Shown here one piece after another: positions 5,516 through 46,219 of a stretch of DNA of 55,098 nt. Source of the DNA: a virus; IMG/VR virus record IMGVR_UViG_3300021197_000270, positions 1 to 55,098 of that record; one strand, written 5' to 3'. Position 1 is the stretch's first letter, and the number at the start of each line of letters is the position of its first letter. The notes under the pieces were generated by a model. It had not been told where the DNA came from, did not search any database, and was given only the letters and a program-made list of their open reading frames with translations. Both the position numbers and the translations under genes were made by a program.

Positions 5516-5948
5516 AGCGATTTACATTTTTGAAGATGAGCATGACCACGTTGGAAGACCAGACGAGGTTTACGTTTACAAGCATTATGACAACTACCCA
5601 GAAGGTGCGGTGGATTTCATTGAGAACGCCAAGGAGTTCGCATGGGAGTTGCCACGGTTTGAGGCTGACGAGTTTGCGGCATCGTTTGTTGCGGCGAACA
5701 AGGATCGGAAGGGTGGCGGCATTCGTTTGGTCAACGCGAGTTTCAAGGATCGTGATGAGATGTTGGAGGCCAATCATTGGTGCGACTATCATTATGTGAT
5801 CTCAAAACATAACAGCCAAGATTTGTGGATTGAGATTTGGGACAGCCGTTATGACATGGATTCGGATGATACGGCTTGGGTTTTGATTGACGAGTTAACG
5901 CATACGGAGATGAAGGAGAAATACGGTGAACGTGCTATCGCTGTTTGA
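5505..5948 (+). CDS. Conserved phage protein of unknown function (147 aa)
   Basis: The protein opens MGTRAIYIFEDEHDHVGRPD and continues VYVYKHYDNYPEGA, ELPRFEADEFAASFVAANK and GGGIRL. This pattern occurs widely among phage and prophage hypothetical proteins. No known catalytic motif is evident. GGAGGAAGACA precedes the start. The coding sequence carries the AAGGAG ribosome site of the methyltransferase, whose GTG start lies 23 bases before this gene's stop. Confidence 0.75.
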   Translation: MGTRAIYIFEDEHDHVGRPDEVYVYKHYDNYPEGAVDFIENAKEFAWELPRFEADEFAASFVAANKDRKGGGIRLVNASFKDRDEMLEANHWCDYHYVISKHNSQDLWIEIWDSRYDMDSDDTAWVLIDELTHTEMKEKYGERAIAV

Positions 5949-7122
5949 CGGAATGTCATGTGGGAGGCTGGCTCTTGAAAGGGCTGGCTTTCCTATCCAC
6001 AACTACTTTGCCAGCGAGATCGACAAGTATGCGATTGAGGTGGCGAGAGCCAACTATCCTGACACGGTGCATCTGGGTGATGTAACCACCGTAACCACAA
6101 AGCATGGTCGTCTTTTTTACGAGGATGAAAACGGTGTTGGGTGTGGCGCGGACATTGATCTGTTGATCGGCGGCTCACCCTGTCAGGGATTTTCGTTTGC
6201 CGGCAAGCAACTCAATTTTGACGATCCGCGTTCCAAACTTTTCTTTGAGTTCGTGCGGCTGTTGAAAGCGTTGAAGCCAAAGTATTTCCTGTTGGAAAAC
6301 GTCAACATGAAGAAAGAATATCAGGACGTTATATCTGACCTTCTGGGATGCAAGCCTATAGACATCAACTCAAACCGTGTAAGCGCGCAGAATCGGCGCC
6401 GTTTGTATTGGACGAACATTCCAGTCAAGTCCTTGCCGGAGAACAAGCATATCTATTTGAAAGACATCTTGGAGGATGGGTTCACGGATCGGGATAAGTC
6501 GCATTGCATAGACGCGAACTACTTCAAAGGCGGCAATCTGAAATCGTATTTTCAGAAGAACCGCCGCCAGCTTGTGTTTGATTTTGACGATCAGACGGAA
6601 GACGGCTTGCAGTTGGCTGGTGAGGCAGACCTAAAGGGTCACGGCTACAATCGCCGCGTCTATCATCCGGATGGCAAGGCGCCAAGTTTGTGTGCGAACT
6701 CTGGCGGCAATCTTGAACCAAAAGTCGTGGTGGTAGGTGAGGCCGAGGGCAATTCGTTTTATCAGGAGCGCAAGGTTTATGATCCGGAGCACAAGAGTCC
6801 AACTCTTACCGGCCAGCGGTCAAGCAACGTGCCAAAGATTCTTCAAGTGCCAAGGGGCAAGAACCAAGGTGGTATAAAAGCGGAGGATGGGAAGGTTCCC
6901 ACGTTGAGCGGATCGTCATGGGAGCATAACAATTTCTTGGCGGTTGATGGTATGAAGTGGCGCAAGTTGACGCCCATTGAATGTGAGCGGTTGCAGACCG
7001 TGCCGGACAACTACACCAACCATGTGTCGAACACCCAGCGTTATCGGATGTTGGGCAACGGCTGGACGATTGACGTAATCTGTCATCTGCTAGGGGGCAT
7101 GAAGGATGCTGTCGATCAGTAA
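5926..7122 (+). CDS. DNA (cytosine-5) methyltransferase
   Basis: 398 residues with canonical C5-methylase motifs. Motif I is SLFDGMSCG (residues 5-13, SAM binding) and motif IV is GGSPCQGFS with catalytic Cys86. ENV at 124-126 is motif VI, NRVSAQNRRRLYW is motif VIII, and the C-terminal MLGNGWTIDV is motif X. The start is GTG with AAGGAG upstream. Between motifs VIII and X (about residues 235-330) lie three related units: VYHPDGKAPSL, VYDPEHKSPTL and AEDGKVPTL, an unusual repeated target-recognition region. No cognate restriction enzyme is in the window, so it is probably an orphan methylase protecting phage DNA from host restriction. Confidence 0.92.
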   Translation: MNVLSLFDGMSCGRLALERAGFPIHNYFASEIDKYAIEVARANYPDTVHLGDVTTVTTKHGRLFYEDENGVGCGADIDLLIGGSPCQGFSFAGKQLNFDDPRSKLFFEFVRLLKALKPKYFLLENVNMKKEYQDVISDLLGCKPIDINSNRVSAQNRRRLYWTNIPVKSLPENKHIYLKDILEDGFTDRDKSHCIDANYFKGGNLKSYFQKNRRQLVFDFDDQTEDGLQLAGEADLKGHGYNRRVYHPDGKAPSLCANSGGNLEPKVVVVGEAEGNSFYQERKVYDPEHKSPTLTGQRSSNVPKILQVPRGKNQGGIKAEDGKVPTLSGSSWEHNNFLAVDGMKWRKLTPIECERLQTVPDNYTNHVSNTQRYRMLGNGWTIDVICHLLGGMKDAVDQ

Positions 7123-8923: not shown

Positions 8924-9101
8924 GTTTCTAACGGTGATACTGATGTGCACCGGAAGCGAATGTAAATGGATTGAAGGTTCATTGCACAATGAAAAATGGC
9001 AGTGCTTGTACGAGATTGCTGAAATGCGGCCTAAATATTACGAAAACAAAACCATGAAATTTGTGGACTGTAAGAGAATAACAACTTATAAACATGGCTA
9101 A
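8913..9101 (+). CDS. Small exported cysteine protein
   Basis: The start at 8913 follows GGAGG (8902-8906). The 62-residue product begins MIVKFLTVILMCTGSECKW, a short hydrophobic signal-like segment, and has four cysteines (12, 17 and two later). That suggests disulfides in the periplasm, or a lipid-modified Cys12 if the segment acts as a lipobox (LMCT is imperfect). Two other genes (11112 and 47139) encode similar tiny exported cysteine proteins. Possibly a superinfection-exclusion factor; this is speculation. Confidence 0.6.
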   Translation: MIVKFLTVILMCTGSECKWIEGSLHNEKWQCLYEIAEMRPKYYENKTMKFVDCKRITTYKHG

Positions 9102-9672
9102 TGATAATAAAATCTTAGATTTCACAATTACTTTGTACTCAAACAAGTTGAAGATTGTGAAGGAGGTGGTCTGTAAGCCCACCGAAGTGGAGAAGGTGAT
9201 TGATGAGTTGGACAAACAAGCCAGCATCCCCAGAAGGGGAGACGGTCACCATGGTTACTACATCGAGGTCGAAGTAAGGAGGCATAAGGATGTATATAGG
9301 AAACCAAACGGTGTTGATAAACGACACCCTAAACCTGCTACGCGGAAAGCTAGTGCGGTTCATTCTGGAGGACGGGGACATGCGGATGATCGCAAACCTC
9401 GTGGCAACAGCGGACGAACTGGGTCTGGAGTACGATCAGGAGTCGATGACGTATCGGGATCGAAAGGGCGAGGAGGCAAGACGCAAGAGCCGAGCGCAAC
9501 TAGCAAAGGAACTAGAGCCAGGACTCAATGCACTGTTCGGGACGGATTACGCAAGACACGACCCGAACCTAAGTCCGGAGGAAAGAGAGCAGATGCTGAA
9601 GGAGGCAAAGCGTCTGGAGGCAAACCGCAAGGCGCGAGAAAAGTATCACGCAAAAAAGAAAGGCAAAGCTAA
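9094..9672 (+). CDS. Uncertain ORF: plausible N-terminus with shadow tail
   Basis: Residues 1-65 look like a real small protein (beta strand DFTITLYSNKLKIVKEVV, then helix EVEKVIDELDKQA). From about residue 66 on, the frame lies under the gene at 9290 and becomes low-complexity Gly/Arg/Lys/Ser, typical of an alternative-frame shadow. Its stop forms TAATG with the ribbon-helix-helix gene at 9672. A natural gene ending near 9290 that lost its stop, or a sequence error, is the simplest explanation. Confidence 0.4.
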   Translation: MANDNKILDFTITLYSNKLKIVKEVVCKPTEVEKVIDELDKQASIPRRGDGHHGYYIEVEVRRHKDVYRKPNGVDKRHPKPATRKASAVHSGGRGHADDRKPRGNSGRTGSGVRSGVDDVSGSKGRGGKTQEPSATSKGTRARTQCTVRDGLRKTRPEPKSGGKRADAEGGKASGGKPQGARKVSRKKERQS

Positions 9673-9703
9673 TGGCAGCAAAGCGCGGAAGACCTCAAGT
9701 TGA
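9290..9703 (+). CDS. Early protein carrying an 18-residue copy of the capsid N-terminus
   Basis: This 137-residue protein has AAGGAGG seven bases before its start. Residues 1-65 are unrecognised (MYIGNQTVLINDTLNLLRGK...). Residues 67-84 read SRAQLAKELEPGLNALFG, identical to residues 4-21 of the major capsid protein at 42798-43709. Twelve of these 18 codons differ and every difference is synonymous, so the peptide is kept by selection in this frame. A basic helical tail follows (EREQMLKEAKRLEANRKARE, then KKKGKAN). It may interact with the capsid assembly machinery or mimic the capsid N-terminus. Confidence 0.8.
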   Translation: MYIGNQTVLINDTLNLLRGKLVRFILEDGDMRMIANLVATADELGLEYDQESMTYRDRKGEEARRKSRAQLAKELEPGLNALFGTDYARHDPNLSPEEREQMLKEAKRLEANRKAREKYHAKKKGKANGSKARKTSS

Positions 9704-9849: not shown

Positions 9850-10065
9850 ATGTTTGGTAAGTTTATGAAGATGTTTTTCCCTATGTTTGTTTCGGAACCG
9901 GAACGTGCGCGGGATGAGAAGGGTCGCCTTGTTGGGGACGACAAGAAGACTCCTACGTTTAATGAAGCGTGGGTCGGGGGTCAGGCGCCGGCAAAGAAGG
10001 TTGCACCCAAGCCGCTACCGAAGAAGCGTGGCAGGCCAAAGGGTAGCAAGAATAAGAAAAAATGA
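9850..10065 (+). CDS. Small basic protein with AT-hook
   Basis: 71 residues starting MFGKFMKMFFPMF, an amphipathic or hydrophobic N-terminus, and ending in PKKRGRPKGSKNKKK. That end contains a GRP core flanked by basic residues, as in AT-hook minor-groove binders. GGAGG (9839-9843) gives a good start. It overlaps the following ArfA-like ORF as ATGA. Possibly a nucleoid or DNA-associated factor; the hydrophobic N-terminus may tether it to the membrane. Confidence 0.7.
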   Translation: MFGKFMKMFFPMFVSEPERARDEKGRLVGDDKKTPTFNEAWVGGQAPAKKVAPKPLPKKRGRPKGSKNKKK

Positions 10066-10423: not shown

Positions 10424-10522
10424 TTAGAACAGACTCAGCTGCTCCGGCTCGCGCATGATCTCGTCTATGTCTTTATGCATGATCTCGGTAAACTCACCAG
10501 CCGACCACCATGAAATGATCAT
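10424..10522 (-). CDS. 32-aa peptide ending in a sliding-clamp-binding motif
   Basis: The ATG overlaps the stop of the XF1762-like gene (ATGA). The product opens MIISWWSAGEFTEIMHKD and ends EQLSLF. QLSLF at the extreme C-terminus is the canonical beta-clamp-binding pentapeptide of polymerases and clamp loaders. The WWSAG opening is also the usual start of phage PAPS-reductase-like proteins that follow XF1762 genes in other phages. This may therefore be an internally deleted relic, or a purposeful clamp-binding micropeptide. Confidence 0.5.
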   Translation of the reverse strand: MIISWWSAGEFTEIMHKDIDEIMREPEQLSLF

Positions 10523-10971
10523 GCTTCCCACCTAAACTTCAGCTGCCCATAGATTGGTTGCCACTCCCGACTCCGATTCTTGCGATCCCAGCCCTGCGAG
10601 GTGGGCTTGACCTCCCCGACAATCTTCCAACCGGCGCCTCGAAGCGAGGAGCCAGACTCTTCTTGCAAGGTATATGTCACCATGCGTTGACCACCCATTT
10701 GTTGCCAAATTCGCCAACACCGCCCGTAAAGAAAACTGCACGAGTTTTTGGGTGCGTGATCTACAACGCAAACTCTGGTAACCTCGGCTGTCACCCCATC
10801 GTCTAGCATCCGAGCTACGGGTCTGCCCACAATGGCTACCCCGACAAGTTCGCCTGCATAGGTTGCCCCGATAGCAAACTTACCCCCGCCAGTAGGTTTG
10901 TTGTGGCGGTGAAAGTTATCTACGAACTCGTTCGCCTCACGAATGCTGATCGGTGTTACCGTTAACTTCAC
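10519..10971 (-). CDS. XF1762-family GNAT-like protein
   Basis: Starting at GTG 10971, where GGAGA lies eight bases upstream, the 150-residue product reads MKLTVTPISIREANEFVDN, then HRHNKPTGGGKFAIG, VAIVGRPVARMLDDG, EVTRVCV and TYTLQEESGSSLRGAGW. This is the XF1762 family, an acetyltransferase-like fold widespread in phages. Activity and substrate are unknown. An upstream ATG at 11046 would extend it by 25 residues into the overlapping zinc-ribbon gene and is less likely. Confidence 0.85.
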   Translation of the reverse strand: MKLTVTPISIREANEFVDNFHRHNKPTGGGKFAIGATYAGELVGVAIVGRPVARMLDDGVTAEVTRVCVVDHAPKNSCSFLYGRCWRIWQQMGGQRMVTYTLQEESGSSLRGAGWKIVGEVKPTSQGWDRKNRSREWQPIYGQLKFRWEA

Positions 10972-11128
10972 AAGCCTGTTCTCCGGTGCAACATTCACTG
11001 ATAACCAGATGACATACCGAGCATTGTATGTGCCCATGGACATCAACTGGCGGCATCATCGTCTGGCATCGAGGGCAATGCCCCCGTGCTAATCGTTCTG
11101 CAAAAGTACCGTCACCCTGATCTATCAC
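10937..11128 (-). CDS. Small zinc-ribbon protein, GTG start
   Basis: The GTG start at 11128 has GGAGA six bases upstream. The 63-residue protein contains CPRCQTMM, then CSVCHLVISECC and a further Cys, a typical zinc ribbon. It is probably a nucleic-acid- or protein-binding adaptor. It overlaps the XF1762-like gene by 35 bases and the upstream exported-protein gene by 17, so it lies inside a tightly coupled leftward unit from the helicase. Confidence 0.7.
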   Translation of the reverse strand: MIDQGDGTFAERLARGHCPRCQTMMPPVDVHGHIQCSVCHLVISECCTGEQACEVNGNTDQHS

Positions 11129-16218: not shown

Positions 16219-17731
16219 TGAAACCCTGATCTTCGGACCACCGGGTTGCGGTAAGACACACACGATGATTGAGATCGTGCGGAAGGAGTTAGCGCAAGGC
16301 ACTCCGCCGGACAGGATTGGTTTCGTATCGTTCTCTCGCAAGTCGATCCAAGAAGCTAGAGAGCGCGTAGGGGCGGAGTTACAGCTTACCGAAAAAGATG
16401 TTCCGTGGTTCAAGACACTGCATTCGATAGGCTTTAACTGGCTGGGCATGGATAAAAAAGAGACGATCCAACCTTCAGACTTCCGTAAGCTGGGTGACGT
16501 ATTAGGCATGGCCTTTGATAAGGGCACTGCCGAGGCCATGGAAGAGGGCATGGTTCCTTTGTCTATGAAGGAGGGCAACCGCTATCTGGAAGTAATCAGT
16601 AGATCCAAGCTGCGCTGTATTTCCATGGAACAGGAGTACAATGACCGTGGGGATTACAATCTGCATTGGTCGATGCTCAAGCGCGTGAATCAGGTATATG
16701 TCGCCTATAAGTCAGACGCTGGGAAGTACGACTACACCGACATGATTGAACTGTTCGTCCGTCAGGGCACTGGCCCCATGCTTGAGGTTTTGATTGTCGA
16801 TGAGGCGCAGGATCTGACACCGCTACAGTGGAAGCAAGTGGCGATACTGAAAGAAAGAGCCAGCCGCGTGTACTACGCGGGGGACGATGACCAGTGCATC
16901 CACCGCTGGAACGGCGTGAATCTGCATAGCTTTATGAACGCTTGCGATAACAAGACCGTATTAAATAAGAGCTACCGTGTGCCGGGCAGCGTGTACAAGC
17001 TGGCAAACCAACTGGTCAACCGGATTAACGTCCGCCAGAAGAAAGACTGGCAACCTAGGGATGAAGACGGCAACGTGGATTTTCACATGAATTGGTATGA
17101 TGTGAATATTGATGAAGGTTCGTGGACGATTATGGCTAGAACCAACAAAGCCTTGAACTCAATTCACCATTCTTTACGCGAAGACGGCTATTTGTTTGAA
17201 CGATTTGGTCATTCCATGATCTCGCTTGAACTCCTTGAAGCCATGAGCATTTGGGAGCGGCTGGCAAAAGGCGAGACGGCAAGCGTTGGTGATATAAAAA
17301 AGCTCTACGGTTTCATGCCCAAGCAGGGCGACAGAGCATTGCTCAAACGTGCGGCGACAAAGACCTTTGATGCAGTAGATCCACAAGGCTACCACAACTA
17401 TGACAACTTAGTGGCTGAACATGGCTTGCTTGTTAATCAAGATGCAAGGCCGGAGGTCGTGGTCAACATGTCTCTTGAGGACATACGCTACATGGGCGCC
17501 GTGCGCCGGAGGGGTGAGGATCTGACCAAGCCGCGCATCAATCTATCTACTATACACCGCATGAAGGGCGGCGAGGACGACAACGTCTTGTTGTTGACCG
17601 ACTCGTCATACCCTGCGGTCAACGCTCCAGATCAGGACGATGAACATCGTGTGTTCTATACCGCAGTGACCAGAGCACGGAACAATCTGCATATTGTCGA
17701 TTCCCACGCAAAATATAGGTATGTGATATGA
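16211..17731 (+). CDS. UvrD/Rep-type SF1 DNA helicase
   Basis: 506 residues from the ATG at 16211 (the upstream frame from 16115 shadows the HTH gene). Motifs in order: Walker A FGPPGCGKT (residues 8-16); IGFVSFSRKS (Ia); LIVDEAQDLTPLQW (II); YYAGDDDQCIHRWNG (III); NKSYRVPGSVY (IV); STIHRMKGGEDDNVLLL (V); FYTAVTRARNNLHIV (VI). This is a complete 3'-5' SF1A helicase core, somewhat shorter than UvrD. It presumably unwinds the replication fork ahead of the phage polymerase. Confidence 0.93.
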   Translation: MADETLIFGPPGCGKTHTMIEIVRKELAQGTPPDRIGFVSFSRKSIQEARERVGAELQLTEKDVPWFKTLHSIGFNWLGMDKKETIQPSDFRKLGDVLGMAFDKGTAEAMEEGMVPLSMKEGNRYLEVISRSKLRCISMEQEYNDRGDYNLHWSMLKRVNQVYVAYKSDAGKYDYTDMIELFVRQGTGPMLEVLIVDEAQDLTPLQWKQVAILKERASRVYYAGDDDQCIHRWNGVNLHSFMNACDNKTVLNKSYRVPGSVYKLANQLVNRINVRQKKDWQPRDEDGNVDFHMNWYDVNIDEGSWTIMARTNKALNSIHHSLREDGYLFERFGHSMISLELLEAMSIWERLAKGETASVGDIKKLYGFMPKQGDRALLKRAATKTFDAVDPQGYHNYDNLVAEHGLLVNQDARPEVVVNMSLEDIRYMGAVRRRGEDLTKPRINLSTIHRMKGGEDDNVLLLTDSSYPAVNAPDQDDEHRVFYTAVTRARNNLHIVDSHAKYRYVI

Positions 17732-17997
17732 AAAGAGATAAGCTACTTGATACCGCCAAGGACTTGGTCAATGGGCCAAGAGCCGAGGATTATGGTGACG
17801 CATACGAGAACCATGAGCGCGTAGCGCAACTCTGGTCTGTGATTCTCAAACAGGACATATCGGTTTCTCAAGTTTATCAGTGTCTTACGGCGCTAAAACT
17901 TGCTAGACTGATTGTAACGCCAACGCATCAGGATTCGTGGGTGGATATCGCTGGATACGCCAGCCTCGGAGGAGAGATAGATGGCAAAGGAAAGTAG
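17728..17997 (+). CDS. DUF6378-family phage protein
   Basis: 89 residues matching the DUF6378 pattern: LLDTAKDLVNGPRAEDYGDA, NHERVAQLWSVIL, VYQCLTALKLARL and HQDSWVDIAGYASLGGEI. The family is common in phage replication or nucleotide clusters and resembles all-alpha nucleotide-handling folds, but its activity is unproven. It overlaps the helicase by four bases (ATGA) and the polymerase by 17. Confidence 0.85.
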   Translation: MKRDKLLDTAKDLVNGPRAEDYGDAYENHERVAQLWSVILKQDISVSQVYQCLTALKLARLIVTPTHQDSWVDIAGYASLGGEIDGKGK

Positions 17998-41977: not shown

Positions 41978-42604
41978 TTAGGCTTCGTAGCCCATCAGCT
42001 CAATAAAGAGTTTACCAGCAGTGTAGTCCGCGTCTGTCGCCGCACCTGTTGTTAGATACAAAAACTGATCAGCGGCAGGAACAGCCGAGAAATAAACCTT
42101 GCTTCCAAGAGTTGCGTCACCCGCGTTAACAAGAAGTGTTTCTGTCAAATCACCAATTGCCCCGTCCTCAACACCTGTACCCTCTGTGGCAGAGTGGATA
42201 TTGATGTCGGGGTCGCCGCCAGCCGGAGCCTCAAAACATTCCATGCTACCCGTCAGGATTGTACCGTTTTTAGCAGCAGTGATCTGACCAATGTGACAAA
42301 CAAGTGCTGTACCGTTTACACCAATGATGTCGCCAGAGCCTGTTGAACGCAGACCTGTAAGATCAATAAGAATACGAGTGGTGATGATGCCGCCCATACG
42401 CTGAACTGCGCTGCGGTAGATAGTGCCGGAGCCGGTTGTGATACCCGTGCCGGCCTCTACAGCCATCGTGTTAGCATCAAAAGAAGATACACCAGTTGAA
42501 CTGATGCTTGAGAGAGTTGTAAACGCGCCTGTGGTTGCGTTCTCACTTACAGAGGTAAAGCCGCCCTTTGAGCGCACTGCACCTGAAAAGGTAGTAGTAG
42601 CCAT
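41978..42604 (-). CDS. Conserved head-cluster protein (208 aa)
   Basis: 208 residues starting MATTTFSGAVRSKGGFTSVS, then FTTLSSISSTGVSSFDANTM and ITTRILIDLTGLRSTGSGDI. This is a conserved marine phage protein next to the major capsid gene, beta-rich and probably a capsid decoration or stabilisation protein. It lies just past two tandem terminators after the capsid gene and before another, so it may have its own promoter in 42605-42671, though I found no convincing one. Confidence 0.72.
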   Translation of the reverse strand: MATTTFSGAVRSKGGFTSVSENATTGAFTTLSSISSTGVSSFDANTMAVEAGTGITTGSGTIYRSAVQRMGGIITTRILIDLTGLRSTGSGDIIGVNGTALVCHIGQITAAKNGTILTGSMECFEAPAGGDPDINIHSATEGTGVEDGAIGDLTETLLVNAGDATLGSKVYFSAVPAADQFLYLTTGAATDADYTAGKLFIELMGYEA

Positions 42605-42671
42605 GTAATTCTCCTGTCGTGGCTAGTGTCAGATCCACATTAGATCTGTCAGGGTATAAACACCATACACG

Positions 42672-42797: not shown

Positions 42798-43709
42798 TTA
42801 TGCGCCTGGTGAACCAAACACGCAACGTGGGTCTGAGAAGCCGAAGCTGTAACGCTCACGAGCCTTGAACCGCATGTTGCCGGTGTCGAAGTCTGCTTCC
42901 ATCTGTGTAGACAGAGGCACACGCTCAAAGTGGAGGAATCCACGAGGAGCATCAGTCATGATGAAGAACGCATCTGAATCCGTCAGGAAGTCGTTGACGG
43001 CATAACCGTCAGGCAACATACCCATCGAACGAATTGCGTTAACATCGTTGTCTGCTGTGCCGACACGAAGATTTGAAACCATCAAACGCTCTGCCACAAA
43101 CTGTAGCTGGCGAGGAACGATGAGCTTCATGCCACGAAGAGCAACCTTCAGACCACGCTCGTCAACAAATCCAGCAATGCTGATCAGAGCATCCTCAAGG
43201 GATGTCTCATTCAGATCAGCGGCAGTGCTAGGCTCGTTATTGAACGTGCTACCGTTGGTCAGCGGGTGTGATGCGTCACAGAGTGCAACACCGTCACCGC
43301 CAGCAAATGCACCAGCCGAAAATGCGTTGTTTAGAACGCTGGCTGCTTTTACCTGCTTTGTGTGAGCCATTGAACGGGCAAGAGCACGAGTGTAGCGCGA
43401 AGACAGACGATCATAGAGATTGTCTTCCACGGCTTCTTCTGTGATCGAAAATGCCAGAGCAATGGTTTCGTGGTTGTACCGAGCGGTAAATGCTTCATTG
43501 GCGTCATCAAAACTGATGGCAGAACCTTCATCCTTAGTAGGAGCGGCTCCAAACCCGGAAAGCATGACCTCTTCCTCAAATGATCTATCTGAGGACTCAG
43601 TGGTGTAGATTTCTGCGTGCTGGTTCTCGTACCTGTCATACTCCATTCCAAATAGAGCATTGAGGCCTGGTTCCAGTTCTTTCGCTAGTTGTGCGCGAGA
43701 AATAGCCAT
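42798..43709 (-). CDS. Major capsid protein
   Basis: 303 residues, HK97-fold type by pattern: N-arm MAISRAQLAKELEPGLNALF, then TESSDRSFEEEVMLSGFGAA, AISFDDANEAFTARYNHETI, then ALAFSITEEAVEDNLYDRLS and helical YTRALARSMAHTKQVKAASV. QMEADFDTGNMRFKARERYS near the end fits the P-domain. The N-arm peptide (residues 4-21) is duplicated in the early gene at 9290. The scaffold and decoration genes precede it and a double terminator follows. Confidence 0.85.
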   Translation of the reverse strand: MAISRAQLAKELEPGLNALFGMEYDRYENQHAEIYTTESSDRSFEEEVMLSGFGAAPTKDEGSAISFDDANEAFTARYNHETIALAFSITEEAVEDNLYDRLSSRYTRALARSMAHTKQVKAASVLNNAFSAGAFAGGDGVALCDASHPLTNGSTFNNEPSTAADLNETSLEDALISIAGFVDERGLKVALRGMKLIVPRQLQFVAERLMVSNLRVGTADNDVNAIRSMGMLPDGYAVNDFLTDSDAFFIMTDAPRGFLHFERVPLSTQMEADFDTGNMRFKARERYSFGFSDPRCVFGSPGA

Positions 43710-44859: not shown

Positions 44860-45741
44860 TTAGTCCTTCACATACTTAGCGTATTCTTCAAGAGGAACAC
44901 CAAGTTTTTTAGCCATAGCCACTTGTGATGGTGACAACTTGACAGTCCTGCGCCCCTGCTTGTTGCTGCGGGATGCGGAAGTAGAAGCCGAGGCGACCCT
45001 TGTACTTCCCCCGTTTTGTTTCGCCCCTAGTTCGTTTGGAAAACGATCTTTGAGACGACTGTTCAATTGATCATAGTATTCATCTTCGGTTCCGTCAAAC
45101 CCTTCCGCAGTAAGATTGTTGTGAATAACAATCGCAGCCTGCGTCATAATCTCATCTTCGCCAAACCATTCGTTCCGTTCAGCCCACTTTTCAGCCTTGG
45201 GATCTGGTTTAGCTGCCGGAGCCGGAGCCTGTTGTTGAATCTCTGTGGCGTTAGCCGCCGGAGCCTGTTGCTCCTGACGTTGTTTAGCTAAACGAAAACG
45301 CTCTTGTTCTATGGAAATCTTTGACAGTGCCTGTTGCGCGTCAAACATGGCGTCAACGTCACCTCGATCATGCGCGTCTTTGTACGCACGTTTTGCGGTG
45401 TCCAGTTGTGAGTCAATACGACTGCCATATTCACTAAGATAACCCTGATCAAGATTGCTCAACTTGTTTTTAAGTTGTTCATTCTCGTTCTTCAGCGTTT
45501 CTGCAAGCCGAGCCGCTTCTTCCTTGTCACGCTCGGCGTAACGATACTTCTCGGTTAGCTTCTTAATCCGTTTCTGTACGCCCTTGCTATAATTGTCTAG
45601 CTCATCAGGTTCTTCCACAGAGACTTCCGGCTGATCGGAATCAGATAAGTCTAAGGACTCCTGAACTGGAGCACCTTTCTGATCGTCACCAACAGTAACT
45701 TCTACTTCTTCCTCAACAACCTGTGCTTCAGCTTCTGCCAT
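44860..45741 (-). CDS. Capsid scaffold protein
   Basis: About 293 residues from the third of three ATG codons (GGGAG upstream). Acidic N-terminus, a long coiled coil (KGVQKRIKKLTEKYRYAERD, then AARLAETLKNENEQLKNKLS), a Gln/Ala/Pro-rich linker and a C-terminal basic/helical capsid-binding end (RTVKLSPSQVAMAKKLGVPL). Length, charge and position directly before the capsid genes fit a T7 gp9-like scaffold. It should be absent from mature virions. Confidence 0.85.
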   Translation of the reverse strand: MAEAEAQVVEEEVEVTVGDDQKGAPVQESLDLSDSDQPEVSVEEPDELDNYSKGVQKRIKKLTEKYRYAERDKEEAARLAETLKNENEQLKNKLSNLDQGYLSEYGSRIDSQLDTAKRAYKDAHDRGDVDAMFDAQQALSKISIEQERFRLAKQRQEQQAPAANATEIQQQAPAPAAKPDPKAEKWAERNEWFGEDEIMTQAAIVIHNNLTAEGFDGTEDEYYDQLNSRLKDRFPNELGAKQNGGSTRVASASTSASRSNKQGRRTVKLSPSQVAMAKKLGVPLEEYAKYVKD

Positions 45742-45751
45742 CATCATCTCC

Positions 45752-46219
45752 CTAAACCTGTTTCACATCATCAGGCTCAAGGATAGTGGCGATCACTTCG
45801 TCATCGTTAATGATGCGAACCTCGCCGCCGTCAATCTTGAACCTAGAACCGGCATACCGACCGATGCAAACCCATTGTCCTTCTTCACACCAAGGCTCTG
45901 GGTTGTCGCCAAACTTGTTGGGATCCTGATACGCCAACGGGCCTAGCTTGAGAACATAAGCCACCACCGTAGCCAGTGCTTCACGCTCACGCGCCTCGTT
46001 AGGAATGATGATTCCGCCGTCTGTCTTCAGCTTGCCTTGATATGGCATAACCAAAAGCCGCCAACCAGTAGGTTGCGGCAGGCGTTCTTTTAAAGATTTG
46101 TCTATAAGGTTGGGGTCTAGAACTCGTGCCTCGGCCTCTACATACGCAGACTCTGCTGAAACTGGCTCTTTTACCTTTGATTTTGCGATATGATCAGGAA
46201 CGTATAATGTCTTCGCCAT
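45752..46219 (-). CDS. GroES-like co-chaperonin (Cpn10)
   Basis: 155 residues. GWRLLVMPYQGKLKTDGGII, then IPNEAREREALATVVAYVLK, EEGQWVCIGRYAGSRFKIDG and VRIINDDEVIATI match the Cpn10 fold: N-terminal strand, mobile loop (about residues 62-72), roof and C-terminal strand. An N-terminal extension of about 45 residues is unusual. It probably pairs with host GroEL to fold the capsid protein, as T4 gp31 does. It lies just upstream of the scaffold and capsid genes. Confidence 0.9.
   Translation of the reverse strand: MAKTLYVPDHIAKSKVKEPVSAESAYVEAEARVLDPNLIDKSLKERLPQPTGWRLLVMPYQGKLKTDGGIIIPNEAREREALATVVAYVLKLGPLAYQDPNKFGDNPEPWCEEGQWVCIGRYAGSRFKIDGGEVRIINDDEVIATILEPDDVKQV

Follow-up and report, generated by a model that had tools for sequence, protein, structure and literature searches.

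The major capsid protein N-terminal arm recurs on non-capsid proteins of a marine phage lineage and may be a portable docking motif

The DNA under study, called the window below, is the 55,098-nucleotide stretch at positions 1 to 55,098 of IMG/VR virus record IMGVR_UViG_3300021197_000270. It encodes the 18-residue peptide SRAQLAKELEPGLNALFG twice: at 9488-9541 (+), as residues 67-84 of a 137-amino acid non-capsid protein, and at 43647-43700 (-), as residues 4-21 of the major capsid protein. The copy outside the capsid gene is named here the tag and its capsid counterpart the N-arm. The elements concerned are:

9290..9703 (+): tagged 137-amino acid protein, with a conserved helical core (residues ~1-60), the capsid N-arm copy and a basic Lys/Arg tail
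9488..9541 (+): 18-residue capsid N-arm copy (SRAQLAKELEPGLNALFG), assigned by sequence identity
42798..43709 (-): major capsid protein, HK97 fold, Mu gpT-like, assigned by Pfam, model match and homologues
43647..43700 (-): capsid N-arm, residues 4-21, near-invariant in 53 aligned capsids, low-confidence predicted helix

The two copies differ at 12 of 18 codons and 14 of 54 bases, every difference being synonymous, and their likeness continues beyond the 18 residues (FGTDYARH vs FGMEYDRY). An earlier note, made from the letters of the window, had reported this duplication; its coordinates, residue numbers and identity are exact and its codon count is confirmed. The capsid N-terminus finds two places only in the window, the second being the tagged gene with E=2.6e-10, a value within this genome that rules out a chance match. 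Helices are predicted in the tagged protein at residues 3-22, 28-43, 58-86 and 96-123; it matched no Pfam or PHROG family, and comparison of its fold with the PDB gave no significant match. Its gene sits in the plus-strand replication region while late genes are on the minus strand, and this strand and neighbourhood, by themselves, suggest that it is early.

The capsid protein has Pfam matches to Phage_capsid_4 (1.7e-11) and Mu-like_gpT (1.3e-5), shares 67-70% identity over its full length with the capsids of HTVC023P and DSL-LC04, and has a structure model that matches HK97-fold capsids. The N-arm follows the near-invariant pattern R-x-Q-L-x-x-ELEPGLNALFG-x-x-Y across 53 aligned capsids, with invariant columns R5, Q7, L8, E11-G21 and Y24, most of these capsids having been collected by a pattern of the core peptide so that the invariance of LEPGLNALFG owes something to that selection. 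Whole-protein search also retrieved distant relatives, in which the arm is KALWPGINAWYGKEY-like, with P and Y kept and P-G mostly kept. AlphaFold2 renders capsid residues 5-20 as helical with a low predicted local distance difference test (pLDDT) score. The peptide is the N-terminal helical arm of the HK97-fold, Mu gpT-like capsid family.

A scan of IMG/VR yielded 16 homologues of the window protein and a seventeenth match, L019, that shares the tag only. The earlier note had named beforehand retention of the peptide in homologues as its check, and this is largely borne out: the tag is intact in 13 of the 16, is decayed in L013 and is missing from L016 and L017, which end without it. Because of these three, the tag is not indispensable to the window-type gene. 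Where it is kept, it is tightly held. In 12 tag-keeping sequences, window included, the proportions of synonymous and nonsynonymous differences (pS and pN) are 0.433 and 0.013 in the tag, a pN/pS ratio of 0.03, and 0.317 and 0.076 in the core of the protein, a ratio of 0.24; loci picked by the exact tag were left out of this set, and since only sequences with the core peptide could enter it, the pN of the tag is somewhat lowered. The lowest ratio among 17-codon stretches of the protein core is 0.10. The closest capsid DNA to any non-capsid copy is identical at 35-49 of 54 bases, so that recent gene conversion is ruled out, no capsid sequence being nearer than 49/54 to any tag. These values uphold the claim that the peptide is conserved as protein and does not result from a recent copy.

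The codon differences need a separate reading, for a second frame runs through the tagged gene:

9094..9672 (+): upstream open reading frame (ORF), 192 amino acids, open through the tagged gene in a different frame, assigned by stop counts and substitution rates

In 12/12 relatives examined the corresponding frame likewise extends deep into the tagged gene or across all of it. The second frame of the window has 0 stops vs 9-11 expected from phage codon usage; stop-free simulations numbered 0/3000 with this usage, and the chance is ~0.005 even with the skewed codon usage of the tagged gene itself. In the window and six relatives tested the frame is stop-free where about 4-11 stops are expected. 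Codons ending in T are depleted in the tagged gene (10% vs 24-31% elsewhere). The extension of the 9094 ORF is thus kept open while its residues are loosely held, since pN is about equal to or above pS in that frame. Because the second frame is kept open, the synonymous differences between the two copies should not be taken as a clock and may be partly due to this constraint. The earlier note had taken codon divergence as a sign against recent recombination: that the changes are synonymous stands, and the second frame may contribute to them. ORF 9094-9672 may in its own right be an overprinted gene, and its extension is basic and rich in Ser, Gly and Arg.

The search for the peptide outside the capsid gene in related phages, which the earlier note had also called for, had an unforeseen outcome: besides the window-type protein, five other apparently unrelated proteins have it. 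These IMG/VR searches used DNA patterns for LEPGLNALFG, partly chosen to avoid capsid genes, together with a profile of the tag. They place it on six architectures, grouped by sequence inspection and Pfam/PHROG matches, at different loci of one phage lineage:

Type A: window-type protein; locus beside the helicase gene
Type B: DUF6378 and acidic linker, tag, Cys/His tail; the DUF6378 gene adjoining the DNA polymerase gene
Type C: small Zn-ribbon-like protein, tag close to its end; locus elsewhere, seen on one contig
Type D: helix-turn-helix (HTH)-like stretch, tag, then DUF6378; the DUF6378 gene adjoining the DNA polymerase gene
Type E: Myb-like repeats, tag, C-terminal transmembrane helix; downstream of the polymerase gene
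Type F: amphipathic N-terminus, tag, winged HTH; locus elsewhere
17728..17997 (+): untagged DUF6378-like protein of the window, whose polymerase-adjacent DUF6378 counterpart in relatives is tagged (types B and D)

Among the HTH-like types D, E and F, type F alone reaches a Pfam cut-off (HTH_5). The position of the tag varies, from residues 67-84 of 137 in the window to far inside type B proteins of 210-300 residues and near the end of type C. Some type B tags read LEPGLNELFG, and the core is therefore not absolutely fixed. Each record searched has at most one tagged non-capsid protein. Eight records (the window, G006, G007, G009, G013, G043, G072 and G096) combine one such protein with a capsid gene encoding the same arm, that of G013 being cut by the contig end. 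Tagged genomes are scattered among untagged ones in a DNA-polymerase tree, some records called untagged being incomplete, and the gene that bears the tag changes from clade to clade, with B, E and A/D in separate places among untagged genomes. L524 is untagged although its polymerase and that of tagged G097 are identical. No second copy was found in distant relatives with a divergent arm (QDWS535, Caulobacter phage RW, Pag-Yong1, CRP-901/902 and others).

A cellular origin was considered as well. Among 84,980 bacterial and archaeal species, each represented by a single genome, the exact 10-residue core occurs in 43 stretches, which correspond to 41 phage capsid genes in draft genomes and two short spurious frames. 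No cellular homologue of the tag was found in this set, and a host motif copied by the phage is ruled out, the core being confined to phage capsid genes and the two spurious frames. Glutamine is the key residue of clamp-binding motifs; it is absent here, and a reading of LNALF as such a motif was dropped.

Judged from the sequences, selection acts on the peptide itself, on unrelated proteins of phages whose head genes are of the scaffold type. Identical in the two genes, conserved as protein, modular, present on several architectures at several loci and without a cellular homologue, the peptide is probably a functional docking motif. The same arm on unrelated proteins suggests a reusable address tag for the growing head. 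The capsid arm, a short helical docking motif, would have been grafted in this lineage onto unrelated non-capsid proteins, each of which would bind whatever binds the arm during head building. The most likely partner would be the C-terminal motif of the scaffolding protein. The genes concerned are:

44860..45747 (-): putative scaffolding protein, acidic/coiled, assigned by its position between portal and capsid genes and its composition
44863..44940 (-): C-terminal motif of the putative scaffold (KLSPSQVAMAKKLGVPLEEYAKYVKD), conserved, proposed N-arm partner
45752..46219 (-): GroES-like co-chaperonin adjoining the scaffold gene (Pfam Cpn10, 3.1e-9; PHROG 3188)

The putative scaffold matches PHROG 28737, a family of unknown function, and has no relative among PDB sequences. 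Its C-terminal motif is kept in most of 191 distinct homologues and comes in two types. Type 1 is found with Glu at capsid residue 23 (102 Glu, 0 other) and type 2 mostly without it (3 Glu, 12 other), an association that is uncorrected for kinship and that might equally stem from kinship and, to some extent, from the choice of search patterns. The scaffold is the leading partner candidate because of published contacts between arm and scaffold. In 80alpha the capsid N-arm is a scaffold-binding site (PMC5644958), and the capsid N-terminal helix docks the scaffold in the procapsids of SPP1 (PMC6813328) and P22 (PMC9965877). These three phages thus resemble the present case in using the N-terminal helix of an HK97-fold capsid protein as a scaffold docking site, and differ from it in that the literature covered mentions no other protein bearing a duplicate of their arm.

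Once bound, the tagged protein may enter the procapsid as a minor passenger, like the T4 internal proteins. The passengers, which look basic or DNA-binding, may protect or condition DNA, or act in the next host. Short linear peptides also bring unrelated proteins inside an HK97-fold shell in encapsulins, whose cargo-loading peptides bind the shell protein; there the peptide is a ligand of the shell protein, whereas here it copies part of it. In T4 the capsid-targeting sequence is N-terminal in its passengers and is cleaved off by the head protease. The tag of the present lineage has an internal or C-terminal position, not one at the extreme N-terminus, and equals the arm of the capsid protein itself; no separate protease family was recognised among the late proteins scanned, where a divergent one could escape. 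The six architectures present a single peptide shared by several unrelated proteins within one phage group. The T4 internal proteins are likewise diverse and share only their capsid-targeting sequence, a short common peptide on often basic proteins recruited via the scaffolding core (PMC3012670). T4 offers, by analogy, the nearest known logic. SaPI1 CpmB is another non-capsid protein that copies one side of the capsid-scaffold interface, in this case the scaffold side of the 80alpha interface and encoded by a satellite (PMC5644958), whereas the lineage studied here copies the capsid side and carries it in the phage itself.

We give close to an even chance to the form of this interpretation in which the tagged protein binds the scaffold and enters the procapsid as a passenger. 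We put forward more tentatively that this marine lineage uses its own capsid arm as a transferable address, by which any non-capsid carrier would enter, or control, the assembling head, the tag moving from gene to gene with one different effector per phage. If so, it would be a natural code for capsid loading or assembly control built from the capsid's own arm. Scanning uncultured phages for a second arm copy could then find virion-delivered or assembly-linked proteins, and the tag would give a direct handle on arm-scaffold recognition and a ready-made means of loading proteins into such heads. A limited literature search found no report of such a tag on non-capsid proteins.

Several observations weigh against the passenger interpretation. 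The complete relatives HTVC023P, HTVC027P, DSL-LC04, Pag-Yong1, CRP-901, CRP-902 and 023Pt_psg01 are without a second copy, and the function is therefore dispensable or done otherwise; L016, L017 and L524 are untagged orthologues. The six architectures were told apart by inspection and by Pfam/PHROG matches, and two of them, types B and D, have the DUF6378 domain in common but bear the tag on opposite flanks of it. The arm sits at the N-terminus of the capsid protein, but the tag occupies an internal or near-C-terminal position. Should the gene really be early, the protein would need to persist until scaffold is produced. The scaffold itself is putative, from position and composition, and its partnership with the tag and the entry of tagged proteins into procapsids are proposals.

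The earlier note had envisaged that an early product displaying the arm binds scaffold, portal or capsid to time assembly, or competes with a host factor that targets the arm, a mechanism that is plausible but unproven. In its regulatory version the tagged protein occupies the scaffold or another partner of the arm and assembly waits until capsid protein outcompetes it, or a DNA-binding regulator senses capsid or scaffold levels through its tag. The HTH-like, Myb-like or winged-HTH stretches of types D, E and F, the location of the window gene in the replication region and the limit of one tagged copy per record all fit such a role. However, the passengers differ widely, many relatives manage without, and to compete at low copy number with so abundant a capsid protein the tagged protein would have to bind far more tightly, yet the core peptide is identical; we regard this version as unlikely. 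We consider rather improbable the other version, in which a host protein such as a defence sensor, protease or chaperone recognises the capsid arm and the tagged protein, made first, acts as a decoy that occupies or disables it. The near-invariant arm would be a good target, and tagged and untagged relatives interleave as is often the case for counter-defence genes. Nevertheless, no host protein is known, the peptide scan of cellular genomes says nothing on a binder, and an early protein that displayed a recognised peptide would be likelier to set off a sensor than to block it.

Still less probable is that a phage GroES-like protein or a host chaperone recognises the peptide, so that tagged proteins share the folding route of the capsid. 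In the window, HTVC023P, CRP-901 and QDWS535 a GroES-like gene does adjoin that of the putative scaffold, but small helical passengers should not need such help, and we know of no co-chaperonin that binds a specific substrate peptide. Copying of the stretch coding for the N-arm into other genes, tolerated there as recombination debris or as a selfish in-frame insert, would account for a tag that lies at linkers and that some orthologues have and others lack. For the window family, a pS of about 0.43 with so low a pN opposes neutral drift, and the absence of DNA-level likeness to a donor speaks against recent copying; this explanation is largely refuted and we give it hardly any weight. Docking during head assembly remains the interpretation that we favour.

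Other features were recorded around these genes. An Rfam Mu-gpT-DE RNA (RF03012, 66 bits) lies at 42602-42654 (-), directly downstream of the capsid gene and overlapping the start of the next gene; this element occurs after the capsid gene only, and none was found near tagged genes. A group I intron (RF00028) splits the capsid gene in relatives L334 (12775-12991, -), L335 (2780-2996, +) and L351 (7000-7220, +). L334 and L351 have the other scaffold type. Three IMG/VR matches resembling tagged ORFs of 94-98 amino acids are actually capsid genes split by such an intron. In L011 and L142 (record G009) frameshifts disrupt the helicase, polymerase and capsid genes, probably owing to low-accuracy assembly.

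Close to the tagged gene of the window, a small protein encoded at 9850-10065 (+) begins with MFGKFMKMFFP, resembling the amphipathic MLGRIFKSIFG start of type F tagged proteins, and has an AT-hook-like KKRGRPKGSKNKKK end. The window also encodes a DNA methyltransferase at 5926-7122 (+) and a Mom-like DNA modification protein at 10519-11046 (-) (PHROG 1384, 1.5e-40).
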